A stretch of 64,000 nucleotides of DNA, taken from Sphingomonas sp. 28-63-12. Its GTDB lineage: Bacteria; Pseudomonadota; Alphaproteobacteria; Sphingomonadales; Sphingomonadaceae. Shown here in pieces: positions 47,246 through 57,026 of this stretch. The position numbers were made by a program, and so were the translations under genes. The notes beneath the pieces are model-generated. The model made no database searches. It had not been told where the DNA came from and was given only the letters and a program-made list of their open reading frames with translations. The stretch lies in NCBI GenBank assembly GCA_002281535.1, contig NCGD01000010.1:1-64000 (forward strand), in the 5' to 3' direction. Numbering within the stretch: position 1 is the stretch's first letter; each line of letters begins with the position of its first letter.

Positions 47246-50092
47246 TTACTTCACGTCCATGACGGACGCGGCGGGCACCACCTCCACCGGCAGGCCGAGC
47301 GAGTCAAGCTGGGGGCGCACGACCTTGGCGTCACCTACCACCACCCAGACAAACCTGGCTGGGTCGAGGGCGGCGCGTGCCGCAGCGTCAAGCTCGCCCA
47401 ACGTCATCGCGCGATATTTTTGCGTGATCGTCGCGTAATAATCATCGGGCCGCTTATACTGATCATTATCGAGCATCGCCGATAGCACCGCGCCGGCAGT
47501 TTCGAAATTACCCGCCAGTTCACGAGTCGCGCCGTTGATCGTGCGGGTGAATTCGGCCGGCGTGATGCCGTTGGTGCCAAGGAACTCTTTCAGGTCGCCC
47601 TGCAGCGCCTTGATCGAATCCCCAGTCCGGTCAGCCTGGACGGGCGCGTTGATGCGATAGCTGACAAGCTGTTCGGTCTGGGCGAAGCCGCCACCGGCAC
47701 CATAGGACCAATGCTTGGTCTCGCGCAGATCATAATTGATCCGCGACAGGAAATCGCCGCCGAGCACGTCATTGGCGGTGCGGACGTTGAGCAGATCGTC
47801 GCTGCCCTTGAGCGGGGTCAGCTGTCCGGCCGCGATCAGCGATTGCGGCGAATCGGGCCGATCGATCAACACGATCTTGGGCGCGGCCTGCACCGGGGAA
47901 ACGCTGAGATCCTTGACCCCCGCCGGGCCAACCCCTGCCCAGTCACCGAAGCTGCGGTTGAGCAGCGGCACGAGATCGGCGAGCGCGAGATCGGACACGA
48001 CAAACATCTTGGCCTTTTCCGGGCGGAGCCAGGCCTGCTGGAAAGCGATGAGATCATCGCGGGTCAGCTTGGCCACCGCGACTGGATCGCCGCCCTGGCC
48101 CGCCGTCTTGGCATAAGGCGATGGCCCGAACAGCAATTTCGGCAGCACGCGCCCAGCCAGCCCGCCGGGGCTGGAGAGTTCCTGCTGGATACCGGCGAGC
48201 TGGGTTGTCCGCAGCCGGGCAACCTCTTCCGGCGTGAAGGCCGGGTGTCGAACGATATCAGCAAACAGGTCAAACGCGCCTGCCGCATTGGCGCTGGGCG
48301 CATCGACGCTCAGAAATGTCCGATCCGGGCTGGCACCGGTCGAGACATTGGCACCAAGCCGCTCCTGCGCTTCGGCAAGCGCGATCGAATCGCGCGACAT
48401 CGTCCCTTCGTCGAGCATCGACAGGGTCAGCTGCTGGACGCCCAATTTGTCAGCCGGATTGGCGACCGCGCCCGCATCAAAGCTGATCAGCGCACGCGTC
48501 ACCGGCACGGCGGTGCGTTGCGCATAGACGACTTCAATGCCGTTCGAGAGCCTGGCGCGCTCAATCTTGGGGAAGACCAGATTGGCGACCGGGCCGACCA
48601 TGGGATCGGTTTCGGCGCGCGAATGGGCCGGCTTCAGATTGGGCGGCGAGACCAGCGGTTTTGGCGCAGCGGCCACGTCGGTCGATGCCTCGCGCGGCCC
48701 GGCAAGCACCGAAAGCCCGTAGACCGGGCGAGTCAGCCATGCCTGGACGGCCGCCTGGACGCTGGCCGGGGTCTGTGCGGCAAGCGCGGCGAGCTGCTTC
48801 TTGAAATAGCCCGGATCGTTCGAATAAAGTTCACCCTGCGCCAGCGCGACCGCCTTGCCACCAAAACCACCGACCGATTCGAGCCCGGCAATCCGGCGCG
48901 CCACACTGGTCGTGACGACGCGCTGGAGTTCGTCGGCGTTCGGCCCGGTCTGGATGAAATCGGCAATCAACGCGTCGAGCCGCTTGCTCGCGACATCGAC
49001 ATCGACACCGGGACGCACCACCATGACGACCTGGAATATCCCCACCTGGGCCAGTGACTGGACGTTGGCGCTCACCTGAATAGCGAGCTTTTCCTTGCGA
49101 ACCAGCGCATTGTCTAGCCGCGAGCTGGACAGCCCCCCGAGCGCCGAGGCCGCTGCCGCCAGTGCAGCCGCGTCCTTGTCATTGAGCCCGGGGACGGCCC
49201 AGGACCGCATGACCAATGCCGCACCGACACGGTCATGGATCACGTCGCTTTTCGGCGCGGCCAGCGTCGGCACCGGCGCCGCCGGCAATTCGGTTTTGGG
49301 GCCAGCCTTGATCTTGCCGAAATATTTGCCGACCAGCGCCTTGGCCCTCGCCAGATCGATGTCACCCGCCAGCACCAGCACGGCGTTGTTGGGGCCATAA
49401 TGGCTGCGGAACCAGTCCTTCACATCATCAAGGCTGGCGGCGTCGAGATCGGCGAGCGAGCCAATCACCGTGTGGCCATAAGGATGACCTGCCGGGAACA
49501 ACCCCTCGATCTGCTTGTATTGGCGAAGGCCATAGGGCTGGTTGTCGCCCTGGCGCTTTTCATTCTGGACGACGCCGCGCTGTTCATCGAGCACCTCCTG
49601 CGTCACCGCGCCGAGCAGATAGCCCATCCGGTCGCTTTCGAGGAACAATGCCTTTTCGAGCGCGGGCGTCGGCACGGTTTCGAAATAATTGGTACGATCA
49701 TAATTGGTTGTACCGTTGAGGTCGGTGGCACCGACCTGCTTCAGGGGCTCGAAGAAATCGCCCGGCGCATTTTCACTGCCGTTGAACATCAGATGCTCGA
49801 ACAGATGGGCAAAACCCGTCTTGCCCTTGGGCTCGAACTTGGAGCCGATATTGTACCAGACGCTGACGGCGACGACTGGTGCTTTGCGATCGGTGTGGAC
49901 GATGACGCGCAACCCGTTGGGCAGCGTGAACTGATCATAGGCAATGTCGACCTTCTTGATCAGATCGGCGACCGGTGCGGGCGCGACCGCGACTGTCGCC
50001 GGCGCCTGCGCCTGCGCCTGCGCACTGGCGGCGAGCGGACTGATGAGCGCGCAGAAGGCAACGCCGGACAGGGCGATCGATCGAAGATGCAT
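47246..50092 (-). CDS. M16 (pitrilysin/insulinase) family zinc peptidase, exported
   Basis: The 948-residue protein has a signal peptide (to about residue 24) and two M16 halves. The N-terminal half has the inverted zinc site HLFEH (96-100) with a downstream glutamate region (VLDEQRGVVQNEKRQ); the C-terminal half (about 510-940) lacks it and contains RLGANVSTGASPD and the family's R/Y-bearing region (YDLRETKHWSYG). Such fused pairs form a closed peptidase chamber in the periplasm. AQAQAQ after the signal is encoded by GCGCCT repeats (50002-50023). Confidence 0.93.
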   Translation of the reverse strand: MHLRSIALSGVAFCALISPLAASAQAQAQAPATVAVAPAPVADLIKKVDIAYDQFTLPNGLRVIVHTDRKAPVVAVSVWYNIGSKFEPKGKTGFAHLFEHLMFNGSENAPGDFFEPLKQVGATDLNGTTNYDRTNYFETVPTPALEKALFLESDRMGYLLGAVTQEVLDEQRGVVQNEKRQGDNQPYGLRQYKQIEGLFPAGHPYGHTVIGSLADLDAASLDDVKDWFRSHYGPNNAVLVLAGDIDLARAKALVGKYFGKIKAGPKTELPAAPVPTLAAPKSDVIHDRVGAALVMRSWAVPGLNDKDAAALAAAASALGGLSSSRLDNALVRKEKLAIQVSANVQSLAQVGIFQVVMVVRPGVDVDVASKRLDALIADFIQTGPNADELQRVVTTSVARRIAGLESVGGFGGKAVALAQGELYSNDPGYFKKQLAALAAQTPASVQAAVQAWLTRPVYGLSVLAGPREASTDVAAAPKPLVSPPNLKPAHSRAETDPMVGPVANLVFPKIERARLSNGIEVVYAQRTAVPVTRALISFDAGAVANPADKLGVQQLTLSMLDEGTMSRDSIALAEAQERLGANVSTGASPDRTFLSVDAPSANAAGAFDLFADIVRHPAFTPEEVARLRTTQLAGIQQELSSPGGLAGRVLPKLLFGPSPYAKTAGQGGDPVAVAKLTRDDLIAFQQAWLRPEKAKMFVVSDLALADLVPLLNRSFGDWAGVGPAGVKDLSVSPVQAAPKIVLIDRPDSPQSLIAAGQLTPLKGSDDLLNVRTANDVLGGDFLSRINYDLRETKHWSYGAGGGFAQTEQLVSYRINAPVQADRTGDSIKALQGDLKEFLGTNGITPAEFTRTINGATRELAGNFETAGAVLSAMLDNDQYKRPDDYYATITQKYRAMTLGELDAAARAALDPARFVWVVVGDAKVVRPQLDSLGLPVEVVPAASVMDVK

Positions 50093-50312: not shown

Positions 50313-52469
50313 TCAGGGCCGGTAATCACGCTCCTTGTGCTTTTCGAGGTCGGCAGGATCGAACCAGACCGGCTTGGTCTTATGATCGACGAACAGCTGC
50401 ATCTGATCGGTATAATGTTTCGACTCCGGCCGCGTCGACGCCGCCCCGTAAGGCTGGATCGATTGCGACGAGACCTTGCCGGCCTTGTCCCAGGCGATGA
50501 ACATGATGAAGCTGTCGCCATGCTTCACAACCAGCCGGCCATCGGGCGCCTCGTCCCAGGTTGACGTCGCGCGCAGCACGTCCGGCCCGCCATCAAGCGG
50601 CAGATCGACCTTGCCCTGGCGCAGCCTGAGTACCGTGCCGAGCGGCGGATCGAGCTTGCCGAAATGCAGCATCAGATATTCGGCTGCGGCCTTCAGCTCG
50701 TCACGCGCATTGGGCCAGGGCTTGCGCGGATAATGGATGCGGTTGCCGACGCGCAGCAGGATCGCGGCCATCGCATCGGCCGGGCCCTTGCCGTCGTAAT
50801 TCCAGTCCCACTGCGCCATGATCTGCTTGGCATCGATCAGCAGCTTATCGCCTTTTGGATCGACCTTGTTGATGTCGTCGAACCAGCGCGCCGCCCAGCT
50901 ATATTTGCTGATGCCGGTATCATATTTGATGCGGTGGAGATCGGCGTCGGTGATCCTCGGATCGGCCCCCATCAGCTCGATCGCGCGGGTGCCGCGATTG
51001 GTGGTGTCGGTCTCGATCCCGAGCAGGGGCGAGAAATCAGCCGGGTTGAGCTCGCTCCCGGTGCCGGCCGCCTGGAAGGGCGTATTGTTGGCATTGACCA
51101 GAAACCCCGAAGCCGGGTTGATGTTCCGCGGAATCATCGCCCACGGCACCGTGCCCGACGCCAGATCGGCTGCCGTATCGCCGGGCAGGACATGGGCGTA
51201 ATCAAAGCCCGGTTTGCGGTTCAGGAATGCCGCATTGTAGAAATAGGCAATGTTGCCTGCGGCGTCACCATACAGGAAATTGGTCGCCGGAATCGCCTGC
51301 TTGGCGAGTGCCGCCTGCCATTCGGCAAAGTCGCGCGCTTTGTTGAGGCGGTAATATTCCTCGACCATGCCAAGCTGTTCGGGCGCGGCATAATGGATCG
51401 CATAGGCGCCAGTCTTGTTGATGATCACCGGGCCATGGACCGATCGATAGGCCGTACGCGGCACGGGCAGGACGAACGGGCCCCACAATTTCACATGCAG
51501 CCACACACGCTGCGTTTCGAGCGGCAGCCATTTGCCATCGAAGCGATACTGGGTGCCGTCCTTGTTCATCACGAGTTTATAGATGTCGATCAGGTCTGGC
51601 CGGTTGACGGTATTGGTCCAGCCCAATGTCTTGTTGTGCCCGAGCAACGGATAGGGCGCGCCGGGAAAGGTTGCGCCGGCAAAGTCCCAACCCTGCTTGG
51701 AATGGACCACCAGCTCATACCAGGCGACGCCGCCACGATAAGGCTGGTGCGAATTGGAAACGAGTCGGGTAAAGCCATCCGCCGAACGCTTGGGCGCGAC
51801 GACAAAGGCGTTGGAGCCGTTGAGATTGCCCTCATTGGGGTCGGCCGCGCCCGCTGGGATCGGGGCGATATCGGGCGAATCGGGATGCGCGCCGGCATTC
51901 TCAACGGGGAGCGGCTTGTCGCCGACCAAAGCGCCGAGCACCGCATCAAGGCCGAAAAAGAAGGGCGACCGCAGCACGAAACCCGCCGCGATATCCTGGC
52001 CGTTGACCGGAAACAGGTTGCGCAACCGGACTTCACCGGGGTGCGTATCGGCAAAGTGGTTGAGGCCGGCGGCATAGGCATCGAGCAGCGCGCGGACATC
52101 GGCGGGCTGCTTCATATAGTCGCGCGTCACCGTTTCGCGGGCGCGGACCAGATGAAGGGCGAAATCAATGCCGGCGCCGTCCTGGCCGAGCAGGGCCCCG
52201 GCGCGCCCGCGCGTCATCGCGACCACTTCCTGCAAGGTCGCGAAATCATCCTCGGCATGGGCATAGGCAATACCGTAACCGACATCGGCATCGCTGGTGC
52301 CAAAGACATGCGGGACGCCAAATGTGTCGCGAACGATGCGCGTGTCATAGCGGTGCGCGGGCGGCGGAGCGGCAGCGGTAGCGGTAAGCGGCTCCCACAG
52401 CGCCAGCCCGATCGCGGCGATGATCAGCAATGTCACCACCGCACCCAAACCCCGAACAACAAATCGCAT
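50313..52469 (-). CDS. Penicillin acylase family protein (Ntn-hydrolase), exported
   Basis: The 718-residue precursor has an N-terminal hydrophobic signal (about 7-25), an alpha chain, and the self-cleavage site NLNGSNAFVV, freeing Ser219 as nucleophile. The beta chain shows SNSHQPYRGGVAWYELVVHS and GHNKTLGWTNT, with catalytic Asn downstream in NANNTPF. The family covers penicillin G/V acylases, cephalosporin acylases and acyl-homoserine-lactone acylases such as PvdQ. Substrate cannot be fixed by sequence alone. It lies alone, 220 bases upstream of the M16 promoter region. Confidence 0.93.
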   Translation of the reverse strand: MRFVVRGLGAVVTLLIIAAIGLALWEPLTATAAAPPPAHRYDTRIVRDTFGVPHVFGTSDADVGYGIAYAHAEDDFATLQEVVAMTRGRAGALLGQDGAGIDFALHLVRARETVTRDYMKQPADVRALLDAYAAGLNHFADTHPGEVRLRNLFPVNGQDIAAGFVLRSPFFFGLDAVLGALVGDKPLPVENAGAHPDSPDIAPIPAGAADPNEGNLNGSNAFVVAPKRSADGFTRLVSNSHQPYRGGVAWYELVVHSKQGWDFAGATFPGAPYPLLGHNKTLGWTNTVNRPDLIDIYKLVMNKDGTQYRFDGKWLPLETQRVWLHVKLWGPFVLPVPRTAYRSVHGPVIINKTGAYAIHYAAPEQLGMVEEYYRLNKARDFAEWQAALAKQAIPATNFLYGDAAGNIAYFYNAAFLNRKPGFDYAHVLPGDTAADLASGTVPWAMIPRNINPASGFLVNANNTPFQAAGTGSELNPADFSPLLGIETDTTNRGTRAIELMGADPRITDADLHRIKYDTGISKYSWAARWFDDINKVDPKGDKLLIDAKQIMAQWDWNYDGKGPADAMAAILLRVGNRIHYPRKPWPNARDELKAAAEYLMLHFGKLDPPLGTVLRLRQGKVDLPLDGGPDVLRATSTWDEAPDGRLVVKHGDSFIMFIAWDKAGKVSSQSIQPYGAASTRPESKHYTDQMQLFVDHKTKPVWFDPADLEKHKERDYRP

Positions 52470-52711
52470 CGGTCACTCCCCCGTTTTTCTTTGAGCGAAG
52501 GTGTAGCCACGGGCTGCGACAAACGCCACGCAGCTTTGAGAAAATGCGATCGATTTCGAAATCGCTGCTCTTTTGCGGGAACGCGACGTCCGTGAGGCGA
52601 CAATGGTGGCGCTACCCTGGCGCTGGCAATAGCCAGCACCGACAAGGCTTTGACAAGCGCTGGCAAACCGTCATGCTACCATTCCTGTATCCTCAGCCCA
52701 TTGGAGTCGTG
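52470..52711 (+). other. Divergent intergenic region upstream of the acylase and the orphan protein
   Basis: No gene is recognised here. TTGACA on the plus strand (52650-52655) could be the -35 box of the 52712 gene, but the matching -10 is weak. GGAG at 52703-52706 is the ribosome-binding site of that gene. Confidence 0.4.
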
Positions 52712-54373
52712 ATGGCCGACCATGCCACCACCGACCGTCCGAAGGCCCGCCCCGGTGATTGCCCCGGCAGGGCGCTGACCGGCTTGGAGGCGGCACCGGC
52801 GGTCATGGCGCTAGGTGACGTTTCGGACATGCTGAACGGGGGAGCGCAAGTCGCGTCGCTGCGCTCGCTTGGCACGCAGCTATCGGCAGGCCCCATAGGA
52901 CAGGCCCCGATTGAATGGGCCGGCGGGCAACCGATCGGTGGTGGCCCTACTTCGGACAACGGGGTCGCGCAGCGCCGACGAATTCCGGTCCCCAACGGCC
53001 TGGGGGTTGTTGCTGTCGACGCCCCCAAGACGGTCTTTTTTGGCCCTGCGTCAGCGGTCGCCGCTCGCTACTGGGCGAAGACGCTGCCGGCTCAACCGAC
53101 CCGTGCCGACCAACTGGCGGCGATCGCCAATGCGGCGGCAACGATTGGCAATCGAATCAATCAGATTGTCGACAGTCAGTGGAATTACAACAGCGCATTG
53201 ATCGACGACGCGGCGGTGAATTTCTTCGACCCCATCCGGGTCAGGCTCGGCGGCGATTATACCGTGGGCGGCCAGATCAGGCGGCTGACGCTCGACTATC
53301 ATTTCGGCAATGCCATGGCGGGGTATGTGATCAACGTCGCCGATACCGGCCCCAACCTCAACGACAGCATGCATGACCCAAATGCAGGCGGCGCACCCGG
53401 GGCCGGGGAATATAGTTCCATCCACGCCGTGGCTGCCCATCCAGTCGGTCCATTGGCGGCCGACCTCAACGATCCCGACGCGGTGACCAAAATCGCCGGC
53501 GAGGGCGCCCGTTGGCAGGTGATCGCCAATAATGCTGCCAAGGTGCGCGACGACACGCGGATTTTTTCGAACGCAGCGGCCGACAATCTGCCCAATACGA
53601 CCGTCCGCTACGTCACATTCCCGCAATTGTGGAAATCCTGGGCGGCAACCTTTGGCAAGGTCTATGGCATAGCCGATGCGACGGTCGTGACCGCGCTGGC
53701 GGCGGCGACCGTCACCATCAAGACTCTTGCGCATCCCGACGGCGAGGCTTCGCCGGTCGGCATAACGACAAGCGACCAGATGAGCGCCGCACATGACGTT
53801 TCGGTTGATCCTGAAAAGCCTGCCAATCAAGCAGCGCTTGCGCATGAAACGGTCGGTTTGCTGAACGTGAAGATCGACGCGCTCGATTTCAGCCAGACGC
53901 TGGCGAATGCCATCGCCGCTGCCCGTGGCAGACTTCCTGCCGCCAATATTTCGTTGAACGTCGAGGGCTATGCCGGCGGGGACCAGTTTGTGTTCCTGTG
54001 CAGTGGGCCGACCGATGCGCTGGCGCCACCGGTGACGCTGCGCGCCGCGCATAGTTTCCCGGCCTATCGGCAGGCGCCGATGCTTCCGGCAATCAAGCAG
54101 GCCACACCTGCGTTTGATGATGCTGACGAACTTTATGAAAACGACGCCCGAGCATATTACGATTCGTCGATCGAAACGTTCATTGAATTTTTCGAGCAAT
54201 ATTTGAATGATCACGAGATCAACGGAGTCGATGCGGCAGCATTGGTGGCCGAGAATTTCCCCTTTTCAGTGCCGCTAAGTGCCGAAGTGGGGGGCGATAT
54301 CCCCGACGACGCCGAAATGGCACGGATGATCACTGCGTATCAGGTCGCCCATCCGCCAGCCATCGACGACTGA
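52712..54373 (+). CDS. Unassigned 553-residue protein, N-terminus resembling injection-system cargo
   Basis: GGAG five bases upstream supports the ATG at 52712. There is no signal peptide or membrane helix. Residues 36-61 (DVSDMLNGGAQVASL, then RSLGTQLSAGP) and VAQRR at 85-89 recall the short leader repeats (LxxxSPxVxxLxxLQ.., VVQR) seen in DUF4157-linked cargo of extracellular contractile injection systems. The middle (about 130-330) has NxxNQIVDSQWNYNS, DYHFGNAMAGYVINVADTGPN and histidine-bearing SSIHAVAAHPVG; the C-terminus is acidic and helical (SSIETFIEFFEQYLND). No family or catalytic site is recognised. It is a single gene between the acylase and clpB. Confidence 0.8.
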   Translation: MADHATTDRPKARPGDCPGRALTGLEAAPAVMALGDVSDMLNGGAQVASLRSLGTQLSAGPIGQAPIEWAGGQPIGGGPTSDNGVAQRRRIPVPNGLGVVAVDAPKTVFFGPASAVAARYWAKTLPAQPTRADQLAAIANAAATIGNRINQIVDSQWNYNSALIDDAAVNFFDPIRVRLGGDYTVGGQIRRLTLDYHFGNAMAGYVINVADTGPNLNDSMHDPNAGGAPGAGEYSSIHAVAAHPVGPLAADLNDPDAVTKIAGEGARWQVIANNAAKVRDDTRIFSNAAADNLPNTTVRYVTFPQLWKSWAATFGKVYGIADATVVTALAAATVTIKTLAHPDGEASPVGITTSDQMSAAHDVSVDPEKPANQAALAHETVGLLNVKIDALDFSQTLANAIAAARGRLPAANISLNVEGYAGGDQFVFLCSGPTDALAPPVTLRAAHSFPAYRQAPMLPAIKQATPAFDDADELYENDARAYYDSSIETFIEFFEQYLNDHEINGVDAAALVAENFPFSVPLSAEVGGDIPDDAEMARMITAYQVAHPPAIDD

Positions 54374-54391
54374 ACGACATTCGGCCCGTCA

Positions 54392-54419
54392 CTTGTGTTG
54401 CAAATCGGCAACACTATAT
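54392..54419 (+). promoter_or_regulatory. Heat-shock (sigma32/RpoH) promoter of clpB with internal palindrome
   Basis: CTTG (54392-54395) and ACTATAT (54413-54419) are 17 bases apart and fit the alphaproteobacterial RpoH pattern CTTG-N17-CYTATNT at all but one position. A perfect seven-base inverted repeat, GTGTTGC/GCAACAC with a six-base loop, fills the spacer (54395-54414). Confidence 0.75.
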
Positions 54420-54446
54420 TGCTTGGAAAGGTAGGGACTTTCAGCA

Positions 54447-57026
54447 ATGAACCTCGAAAAATTCACTGATCGCGCCAAGGGTTTTCTCCAGTCGGCGCAA
54501 ACTGTTGCCATCCGCATGAGCCACCAGCGGATCGGGCCGGAACATCTGCTCAAGGCGCTGCTCGAGGACGAACAGGGCCTTGCGTCGGGACTGATCAAGG
54601 CAGCCGGCGGTGATCCGGCGCGTGCGCTGAGTGAAACCGATCTGGCGCTCGGCAAGGTGCCGGCAGTCTCGGGCAGCGGCGCGCAGCAGGCACCGGGGCT
54701 CGACAATGATGCCGTCCGGCTGCTCGATCAGGCCGAGCAGGTCGCGCAGAAAGCGGGCGACAGCTATGTGACGGTCGAGCGGCTGCTGGTTGCGCTGGCG
54801 CTGTCACTCAATACCGTCGCTGGCAAGGCGATCAAGGCATCGGGTGCCACGCCTGAGGGTATCAACGCCGCGATCAACGAGCTGCGCAAGGGCCGCACCG
54901 CCGACACGGCCGGTGCCGAGGACCGCTACGACGCGCTCAAGAAATTTGCGCGTGACCTGACCCAGGCGGCGCGCGACGGTAAGCTCGATCCGGTGATCGG
55001 CCGCGACGAGGAAATCCGCCGTACCATCCAGATCCTCGCCCGTCGCACCAAGAACAACCCAGTGCTGATCGGCGAGCCCGGCGTCGGCAAGACCGCGATT
55101 GCCGAGGGCCTCGCGATTCGGATCGCCAATGGCGATGTACCCGATACGCTCAAAGGGCGGCGGCTGATGGCGCTCGATCTCGGCAGCCTGGTCGCGGGCG
55201 CCAAATATCGCGGCGAGTTCGAGGAACGGCTGAAAGGCGTGCTCGACGAGGTGCAGGCCGCCGAGGGCGATATCGTGCTTTTCATCGACGAGATGCATCA
55301 GCTGATCGGTGCCGGCAAATCAGAGGGCGCAATGGATGCATCGAACTTGCTGAAGCCTGCACTGGCGCGCGGCGAACTGCACTGCGTCGGCGCGACCACG
55401 CTCGACGAATATCGCAAGCATGTCGAGAAAGACCCAGCACTGCAGCGGCGCTTCCAGCCGGTGTTCGTCGGCGAGCCGACCGTGCCCGACACGGTCAGCA
55501 TCCTGCGCGGCCTGAAGGAGAAATATGAGCTGCACCACGGTGTGCGGATCACCGATGCAGCGATCGTCGCGGCGGCAACCCTTTCCAATCGCTATATCAC
55601 CGATCGCTTTCTGCCCGACAAGGCAATCGATCTGATGGACGAGGCGGCGAGCCGCATCCGCATGGAAGTGGAAAGCAAGCCCGAGGAGATCGAGACGCTC
55701 GACCGGCGGATCATCCAGCTCAAGATCGAGCGGGAGGCGCTGAAGCGCGAAACCGATGCGGCATCGAAGGACCGGCTGATTACGCTGGAGGGTGAGCTCG
55801 CCAATCTGGAGCAGCAATCCGCCGAACTGACCCAGCGTTGGCAGGCCGAGAAGGACAAGATCGCCGGTGAGGCCCGGATCAAGGAGCAGCTCGATGCGGC
55901 CCGGCTCGAGGTCGAACAAGCGCAGCGCGCCGGGGATCTCGGCAAGATGGCTGAGCTCAATTACGGCACCATTCCGGCGCTGCAGAAACAGCTCGATGAA
56001 GCGCAGGGCCAGACCCAGGGCGCGATGCTCCGCGAGGAAGTGACGGCGGAGGATATCGCCGGAGTCGTCGCGCGCTGGACCGGGATTCCGGTCGAACGGA
56101 TGATGGAGGGTGAGCGCGACAAGTTGCTCCAGATGGAGGAGACGATCGGCAAGCGCGTGATCGGCCAGAAGGAAGCCGTACGCGCGGTTTCGACCGCGGT
56201 CCGGCGTGCGCGGGCAGGGTTGCAGGACCCGAACCGGCCGCTCGGTTCCTTCCTGTTCCTGGGGCCAACCGGGGTGGGCAAGACCGAGCTGACCAAGGCG
56301 CTCGCCGAATTCCTGTTCGACGACCCCGCCGCGATGGTGCGCATCGACATGAGCGAGTTCATGGAGAAGCACGCGGTAGCGCGGCTGATCGGCGCGCCGC
56401 CGGGCTATGTCGGCTATGAAGAGGGCGGTGTGCTGACTGAGGCGGTCCGGCGGCGGCCCTATCAGGTGATCCTGTTCGACGAGGTCGAAAAGGCGCATGG
56501 CGACGTGTTCAACGTGCTGTTGCAGGTGCTCGACGATGGCCGTTTGACCGATGGCCAGGGTCGGACGGTCGATTTCACCAATACGATCATCGTGCTCACC
56601 TCAAATCTGGGGAGCCAGTATCTGACCGCGCTTGAGGACGGACAGGACGTGTCCACTGTCGAGCCGCAGGTGATGGAGATGGTTCGCGCGCATTTCCGCC
56701 CGGAATTTCTCAACCGGCTCGACGAAATCGTGCTGTTCCACCGGCTCGGTCAGAGCGAGATGGCACCGATCGTCGACATCCAGGTCGAGCGGGTCCGCAA
56801 ATTGCTGGCCGAGCGCAAGGTGACGATCGCGCTGACCGATGCTGCGCGCACCTGGCTCGGGCGGGTCGGCTATGATCCCGTCTATGGCGCCCGCCCACTC
56901 AAGCGCGCGGTTCAGCGCTATCTGCAGGACCCGCTCGCGGATCTGATCCTGTCAGGGGCGGTGAAGGATGGGGCGACGATTCACGCCGATGAGGGCGACG
57001 GAGCGCTGGCGATCAGCGTGACCTGA
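54447..57026 (+). CDS. clpB: ATP-dependent chaperone ClpB
   Basis: ClpB is the ring-forming disaggregase that works with DnaK on heat-damaged proteins. The 859-residue protein has the N-terminal Clp repeats (about 1-145), first AAA+ domain with Walker [14 protein letters not shown], the M-domain coiled coil (about 405-525) that separates ClpB from ClpA/ClpC, and a second AAA+ domain with [13 protein letters not shown]. An RpoH-type promoter lies upstream. Confidence 0.98.

Follow-up and report, generated by a model that had tools for sequence, protein, structure and literature searches.

A probable contractile injection system cargo of the leader-only type, encoded upstream of clpB in Sphingomonas sp. 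28-63-12

What a protein of no recognisable family, encoded directly upstream of clpB in Sphingomonas sp. 28-63-12, might do, and with which other genes of its genome it belongs, is the question raised by this locus. The window, the whole 64,000-nucleotide stretch of DNA that was analysed, is contig C54 in a draft assembly of 54 contigs and 3.48 Mb. An earlier reading made from the sequence alone (hereafter the sequence-only reading) had likened the N-terminus of this protein, here named P0001, to the leaders of cargo proteins of extracellular contractile injection systems (eCIS). That reading gained support, as the leader resemblance was above chance, two contractile injection system (CIS) loci were encoded elsewhere in the genome and cargo genes occupied the same slot in 17 other genomes. 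P0001 is probably a CIS cargo of the leader-only kind, encoded at a docking slot that lies far from the machines and is common to the genus; as such it would be delivered and active. The best explanation as a whole, in which we have good confidence, is that of a CIS cargo made up of a leader and a payload, inserted at the clpB slot and served by a machine of the type found on contig C51. Membership of P0001 among CIS cargos is held at probable because the gene lies outside, and away from, the CIS loci. The features of the protein are as follows.

52712–54373, + strand: leader-only CIS cargo candidate P0001, 553 aa; an open frame without a family, proposed on position and leader evidence.
52793–52894, + strand: leader-like repeat stretch, residues 28–61, APAVMALGDVSDMLNGGAQVASLRSLGTQLSAGP; located with two leader matrices and by aligning it in pairs to the leader of cargo L045 and to an Azospirillum leader-only protein.
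52964–52978, + strand: VAQRR, residues 85–89, with the sole [VILA]Q[RK] motif (residues 86–88) of P0001; presumed leader/body boundary.
52979–54370, + strand: acidic body, presumed effector, residues 90–553; no relatives found.

The frame between 52712 and 54373 (+) was uninterrupted over 553 codons, and GGAG was read by eye 5 bases 5′ of the ATG. Codon-position GC was 0.66/0.50/0.70 compared to 0.65/0.45/0.77 in the adjacent acylase gene; these values are gene-like and the ORF is real. The sequence-only reading had described a protein without a recognisable family, which agreed with the lack of any match at E ≤ 10 in Pfam, NCBIfam and PHROGs; a sequence search of the PDB gave nothing useful (top match E 1.9). 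The eCIS_core domain (DUF4157, PF13699), which carries an HExxH motif, was not found in P0001 with Pfam at E ≤ 10, and P0001 was therefore not classed as a DUF4157 protein. Its layout is a leader, a single [VILA]Q[RK] motif and an orphan acidic body. The earlier statement that there is no signal peptide held as far as hydropathy, the sole check, can take it (no 19-residue window above 1.49). A sigma-70 promoter scan across 52300–54600 detected nothing, and none of four simple promoter patterns was common to the P0001 gene and other cargo genes.

Leaders for comparison were taken from 72 distinct DUF4157 proteins, nearly all from Sphingomonas loci. A Sphingomonas leader matrix of 29 columns was built from 13 leaders (12 selected by sequence pattern and 1 by hand), with P0001 left out. 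The best window of this matrix on P0001 was residues 28–56 with 17.0 bits, a score that no shuffle reached, whether the first 150 residues (0/20,000) or the whole protein (0/5,000) had been shuffled. P0001 ranked 16th among the 1,673 ORFs of the fetched loci; only the proteins used for training (13) and two ORFs that are themselves leader-only ranked higher. As the training leaders, each left out in turn, scored 22.7–64.1 bits, the P0001 leader is weaker than every one of them. A second matrix was trained independently on 14 repeat windows, all from phyla other than that of Sphingomonas. Its top window on P0001 was residues 34–61 with 7.3 bits; this score was reached in 41/20,000 cases when the first 150 residues were shuffled and in 45/5,000 when the whole protein was. 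This placed P0001 4th of 888 ORFs, below two unrelated ORFs of the window (11.6 and 8.2) and the strain's own DUF4157 cargo on contig C29 (7.5). The resemblance of the P0001 leader to cargo leaders is thus above chance with two training sets, and the windows that they chose bore out the placing of an eCIS-cargo-like leader at residues 36–61 by the sequence-only reading.

An alignment of P0001 residues 1–58 with the leader of L045, a DUF4157 cargo of genome G057, had a score of 75 with one single-residue gap. This score was reached by 0/20,000 shuffles against the L045 leader, by 3/1,000 when the best of the 72 leaders was taken and by 2 of 107 control ORFs against the same 72. L045 occupies the same slot as P0001, between an acylase gene and clpB. 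The best alignments of the P0001 leader had E values of 0.02–0.04 in databases that were small and selected. The profile check that had been proposed for the N-terminus brought up no alignment to an unrelated domain, and its outcome was divided: the leader HMM run on P0001 alone gave 7.4 bits and a best-domain E of 2.7e-4, whereas a six-frame search of the host genome with the leader profile at E ≤ 1 listed the C29 cargo alone and not P0001. Given this genome-wide miss beside the scores above chance, identification of the leader is supported, yet the leader does not suffice by itself.

VAQRR was located at residues 85–89, where it had been noted earlier. The motif that it contains, [VILA]Q[RK], was present in 44 of 66 Sphingomonas N-termini preceding DUF4157 (12.0 in shuffles) and in 70 of 87 such N-termini from other phyla (19.3 in shuffles). 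Across 161 DUF4157 proteins it did not occur at all in the 50 residues N-terminal of HExxH, reached 24 per 1,000 residues between 50 and 75 residues past HExxH, with its peak at 60–75, and beyond 100 residues past HExxH mostly fell to 0.5–2.7 per 1,000 (3.9 in one sparse bin). It was found at +35 to +95 from HExxH in 85 of 143 representatives, which are not 143 independent cases because the ungapped thinning that kept 143 of 154 was crude and left near-duplicates visible. Within this interval it was the most enriched of 140 tripeptide classes (8.7-fold; next 3.2-fold). The N-terminal and post-HExxH counts therefore indicate that [VILA]Q[RK] marks both borders of the DUF4157 domain.

Proteins with a leader and no HExxH, like P0001, were found in three other genomes (G171, G170 and Azospirillum). 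L050 of G171 adjoins a DUF4157 cargo and has a counterpart, L051, in G170. L146 of G170 consists of two adjoining leader-only genes, with G171 matches at the corresponding place, and L213 is a leader-only protein within a CIS locus of Azospirillum lipoferum. Residues 8–76 of P0001 matched L213 with E 0.041, the sole match among 80 named DUF4157 loci at E ≤ 1. The boundary-type VQR/AQR is at residue 81 in L050, 79 in the first L146 gene, 87 in L213 and 86 in P0001. A further motif precedes it in L050 (at 44) and in the first L146 gene (at 57); P0001 has the one at 86 alone. The motif pair of L050 is present in L051, in a longer reading frame, and the second L146 gene has a leader and VQL at about residue 82 (by eye) with no [VILA]Q[RK]. 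The plan of a leader, VQR/AQR at about residue 80 and a body without HExxH is accordingly also that of L050/L051, the first L146 gene and L213. The bodies of the G170 pair (L146, 5208–7481) differ from one another, and the second has a repeated EDEWGPFQG-type linker. The Azospirillum protein (L213, 16840–18114, − strand; 424 aa) had codon-position GC of 0.53/0.38/0.57, much below that of its neighbours, which suggests that it was recently acquired.

The slot in which P0001 lies has the following borders and content.

54447–57026, + strand: clpB, which bounds the slot downstream; 291/295 genomes of the genus have a match at E ≤ 1e-200.
50313–52469, − strand: penicillin-acylase-like gene, upstream border of the slot (tblastn).
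47246–50092, − strand: M16-peptidase-like gene, upstream border in strains without an acylase match (comparison of the slots of the genus).
52562–54391, no strand: segment absent from the close relative G210, where about 39 bp are found; a presumed insertion at the slot.

We take the border genes to be clpB and the genes of a penicillin acylase and an M16 peptidase. The gene order in the window is M16 (−), acylase (−), P0001 (+) and clpB (+). Comparison across the genus revealed 17 other Sphingomonas genomes in which DUF4157 cargo, with up to four in tandem, is flanked by M16/acylase on one side and clpB on the other. These comprise 13 of the 20 DUF4157 regions of one fetched set and 4 of the 19 of another; the slot position in G131 was taken from a domain match, the gene having been missed by the ORF filter, and G250, whose hits parallel those of G249, stands outside the set. 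The CIS marker Pvc16_N was present in 17/17 slot genomes, compared to 51/295 in the background (p 9e-15) and 41/61 in the DUF4157-positive genomes (p 2.8e-4). The slot cargos of the 17 genomes had several leader types, and the leader class of P0001 was found at E < 1e-3 in only four of them (G057, G141, G209 and G212). When 20 slots were fetched by clpB coordinates, 5 were nearly empty (149–230 bp), 1 was a DUF4157 slot already counted (G280) and the other 14 had other or unassigned sequence, no upstream border in the stretch or a contig end. The slot cargo of G280 (L049, 4392–6431, − strand) has a NUDIX domain (E 2.3e-6) in addition to DUF4157.

The relative G210 has a ClpB 96% identical to that of the host and a gap of 188 bp between the acylase gene and clpB. 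Alignment of this gap and the start of clpB with the window gave two blocks, 52524–52561 (38 bp) on the acylase side and 54392–54505 on the clpB side; the intervening 52562–54391 is best read as an insertion between the upstream regions of the acylase and clpB genes. An inverted repeat, GTGTTGC-N6-GCAACAC, was present at 54395–54414, just 5′ of clpB, with altered copies in G210 and G254; it may be an operator or promoter element of clpB that was retained through the insertion. There was no evident immunity gene among the neighbours of P0001, and one survey reports the absence of an immunity gene for a notable proportion of such systems (PMC3482391).

A search of the host genome for eCIS sheath and AAA+ genes, as had been proposed, found both at two CIS loci, on contigs C32 and C51. 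The sheath family PF04984 matched on C32, and PF13699 matched two proteins, on C32 and C29. The C32 locus encodes, in one run, a sheath, a gp19 tube, Pvc16_N, an AAA+ protein with a winged-helix domain, a DUF4157 protein, CIS_tube and gp25. C51 encodes Pvc16_N, a sheath C-terminal domain, two gp19 tubes, CIS_tube, a gpV/GPD spike and gp25, and, further along, an AAA+ and a DUF4280 protein. The C51 system (L113, 1–20000; L148, 148–1934) differs in type from that of C32 and begins at the contig edge. As P0001 is on C54, its gene is outside both loci. The sequence-only reading had noted no sheath, tube or baseplate gene in the window and had considered, if the likeness was real, an orphan cargo or a domesticated relative; the machine is not missing, as two are encoded elsewhere in the genome. 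Its remark that eCIS are not known from sphingomonads in the textbook sense needs correction: PF13699 was present in 61 of 295 Sphingomonas genomes, Pvc16_N in 51 and both in 41, so that CIS genes are not rare in the genus. Judged by title and the start of the abstract, a full-text literature search returned no paper on CIS of sphingomonads.

Which of the two machines would serve P0001 was approached through its leader class. In a sample of 35 of the 51 Pvc16_N-positive genomes (G000 left out), the class (profile E < 1e-3) was present in 9 of the 15 genomes that have a C51-like locus and in none of the 20 others (Fisher 7e-5), a pairing in which the nine genomes are those whose cargos supplied the profile leaders, so that the profile favours them. 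These leaders were chosen by sequence pattern before the machine types were known, and the 600-bit border was set after the values had been seen. The fragment of G004 had no machine genes and the contig of G288 gave only 4 kb. There is just one Pvc16_N match in G057, the genome whose slot cargo has the leader most similar to that of P0001, and it falls in a C51-like locus. Loading by the C32 machine instead is possible, though rather unlikely. The C32 locus has its own AAA+ and DUF4157 protein, and a C32-like baseplate protein (E ≤ 1e-20) was present in 9 of the 17 slot genomes. That proportion, however, amounts to no tracking of the slot, and the leader class was absent at E < 1e-3 from the 9 other genomes in which C32-type baseplate matches were strongest. 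From the leader-class pairing, the G057 locus and the failure of C32-type baseplates to follow the slot, the C51 machine is therefore favoured for P0001 and for the C29 cargo, and a C51-type CIS is the likely machine of P0001.

The body of P0001 has a pI of 4.55, one cysteine and no membrane segment by hydropathy. The acidic C-terminus described earlier was confirmed (21 D/E and 3 K/R in the last 100 residues). The Trp/His-rich centre was not, as the whole 553 residues contain 6 W and 11 H, a composition that ruled out a Trp/His-rich effector core. A single-sequence AlphaFold model was unusable (mean pLDDT 33, pTM 0.20). Whole P0001 matched its own genome alone among 100 genomes; a search of 397 family genomes gave matches in 51 at E ≤ 10, the best non-self E being 0.0026. 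Plasmids and phages yielded no relative of the whole protein, and six exact 8-residue patterns retrieved none from IMG/VR or genome_contigs (species genomes). The body alone, searched against 190 class genomes, had its own genome as the single match at E ≤ 0.01. Weak body matches were discarded after inspection: L057 proved to be a PmbA/TldD peptidase, a glycine dehydrogenase domain was matched by L060, L059 belongs to no family and resembles an Arg/Ala-rich frame, and L058 was judged by eye to be an out-of-frame reading beside a thioredoxin-like frame. A jackhmmer run on selected weak-match loci recruited L057 and L059 only and was not trusted.

That P0001 was found only in its own genome (in the 100 genomes, and at better than E 0.002 in the 397), together with its divergent leader and missing DUF4157, could point to a decayed cargo that has lost this domain and is now inactive or being lost. 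We consider this unlikely. The frame of 553 codons is intact, its codon-position GC is that of a gene, and leader-only proteins recur (L050/L051 in G171/G170 and the two neighbours in G170), because of which to lack DUF4157 seems a normal condition for such proteins.

Quite unlikely, too, is that P0001 is an ordinary accessory gene at a variable site beside clpB, with a leader likeness produced by chance in an Ala/Gly-rich N-terminus. Other genes do occupy the slot in other strains, the genome-wide leader search missed P0001 at E ≤ 1, two of the 107 control ORFs equalled its pairwise score and two unrelated window ORFs beat it with the other-phyla matrix. Against this, two independently trained matrices chose the same stretch, the VAQR at 86 lies near the positions in leader-only cargos (79, 81 and 87), and G057 has a cargo with an alignable leader in this very slot. 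An accessory role in the CIS, as adaptor, chaperone, tape-measure or cap with the same leader but without being injected, would suit the lack of both DUF4157 and any toxin family, but is very improbable, as the gene is distant from both machine loci and in other strains the slot encodes DUF4157 proteins whose C-termini vary, one of them with NUDIX.

The preferred reading is thus that P0001 would be carried as cargo (effector) by a phage-tail-like contractile injection system, most likely one of the C51 type because the leader class of P0001 tracks that machine. The first 80 or so residues would form a loading leader of the type of one DUF4157 cargo class in the genus, and residues 90–553 the payload, DUF4157 being missing. 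Its gene would have been inserted into the slot 5′ of clpB, a site at which Sphingomonas would dock CIS cargo apart from the machine loci. An AAA+ ATPase of the machine would load P0001 into the tube, and the leader may be cleaved at VAQR by a DUF4157 protein in trans. By analogy with published systems P0001 would then be injected into another cell and act there, possibly as a toxin.

Several described systems resemble this arrangement. The DUF4157/eCIS_core (PVC-metallopeptidase) cargos of the Cgo1/Cgo2 type in AlgoCIS (PMC8894135) are, like P0001, found with a CIS in the genome; they lie in the AlgoCIS cluster, whereas P0001, likened to them by description, lacks DUF4157 and is encoded beside clpB away from the machines. 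The DUF4157 proteins fetched here share with P0001 a leader with a repeat and [VILA]Q[RK], followed by a body of their own. In two surveys, eCIS-associated toxins (EATs) without DUF4157 are found near DUF4157 genes (PMC11297309, PMC8213781). EATs have DUF4157 proteins elsewhere in the genome, as P0001 does; almost all, however, lie ≤ 10 genes from the last core gene, whereas P0001 is on another contig. The N-terminus of P0001, with no F/W/Y among its first eight residues and only mildly hydrophilic, is also unlike the eCIS signal-peptide trend given in these surveys (PMC8213781, PMC11297309). Loading of PVC effectors is reported to depend on an N-terminal signal and the AAA+ protein Pvc15 (PMC11495950). 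P0001 would likewise have an N-terminal loading signal and AAA+ proteins are encoded at both host loci; the likeness is drawn from descriptions, and P0001 has a leader of the kind seen in DUF4157 cargos. Further payloads that are distant from machines and have no recognisable domain, and which could escape methods relying on distance to a CIS locus, can be sought through the clpB slot and the pairing of leader and machine.

From its position at the boundary of DUF4157 and effector across phyla, [VILA]Q[RK] is a candidate processing (cut) site; an anchoring or recognition role would fit this position equally well. Zhang et al. 2012 predicted that the metallopeptidase releases toxins by autoproteolysis (PMC3482391). 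Growth inhibition by Cgo1 is described as independent of the metalloprotease motifs in the AlgoCIS paper (PMC8894135), and two further papers regard the part that DUF4157 plays in CIS cargo as an open question (PMC8213781, PMC11297309). Among the titles returned by literature searches there was no paper on VQR in contractile injection or on a DUF4157 cleavage site. We tentatively propose, as an idea more doubtful than not, that [VILA]Q-[RK] is the cut site of DUF4157 (in cis, and in trans for leader-only cargos) and that the clpB slot is dedicated to cargo exchange, with payloads swapped independently of the machine. As the motif is on both DUF4157 flanks and is kept in cargos without DUF4157, the processing hypothesis is directly testable.

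A second cargo dock adjoins an EAL regulator and holds the C29 cargo of the host as well as cargos of G288, G170, G171 and G282. The C29 cargo (L007, 4–1791, − strand) is a 595-aa DUF4157 protein whose gene is divergent from those of what we take to be an EAL-type regulator and a histidine kinase. Its C-terminus is, to our eye, reminiscent of a His-Me finger nuclease.
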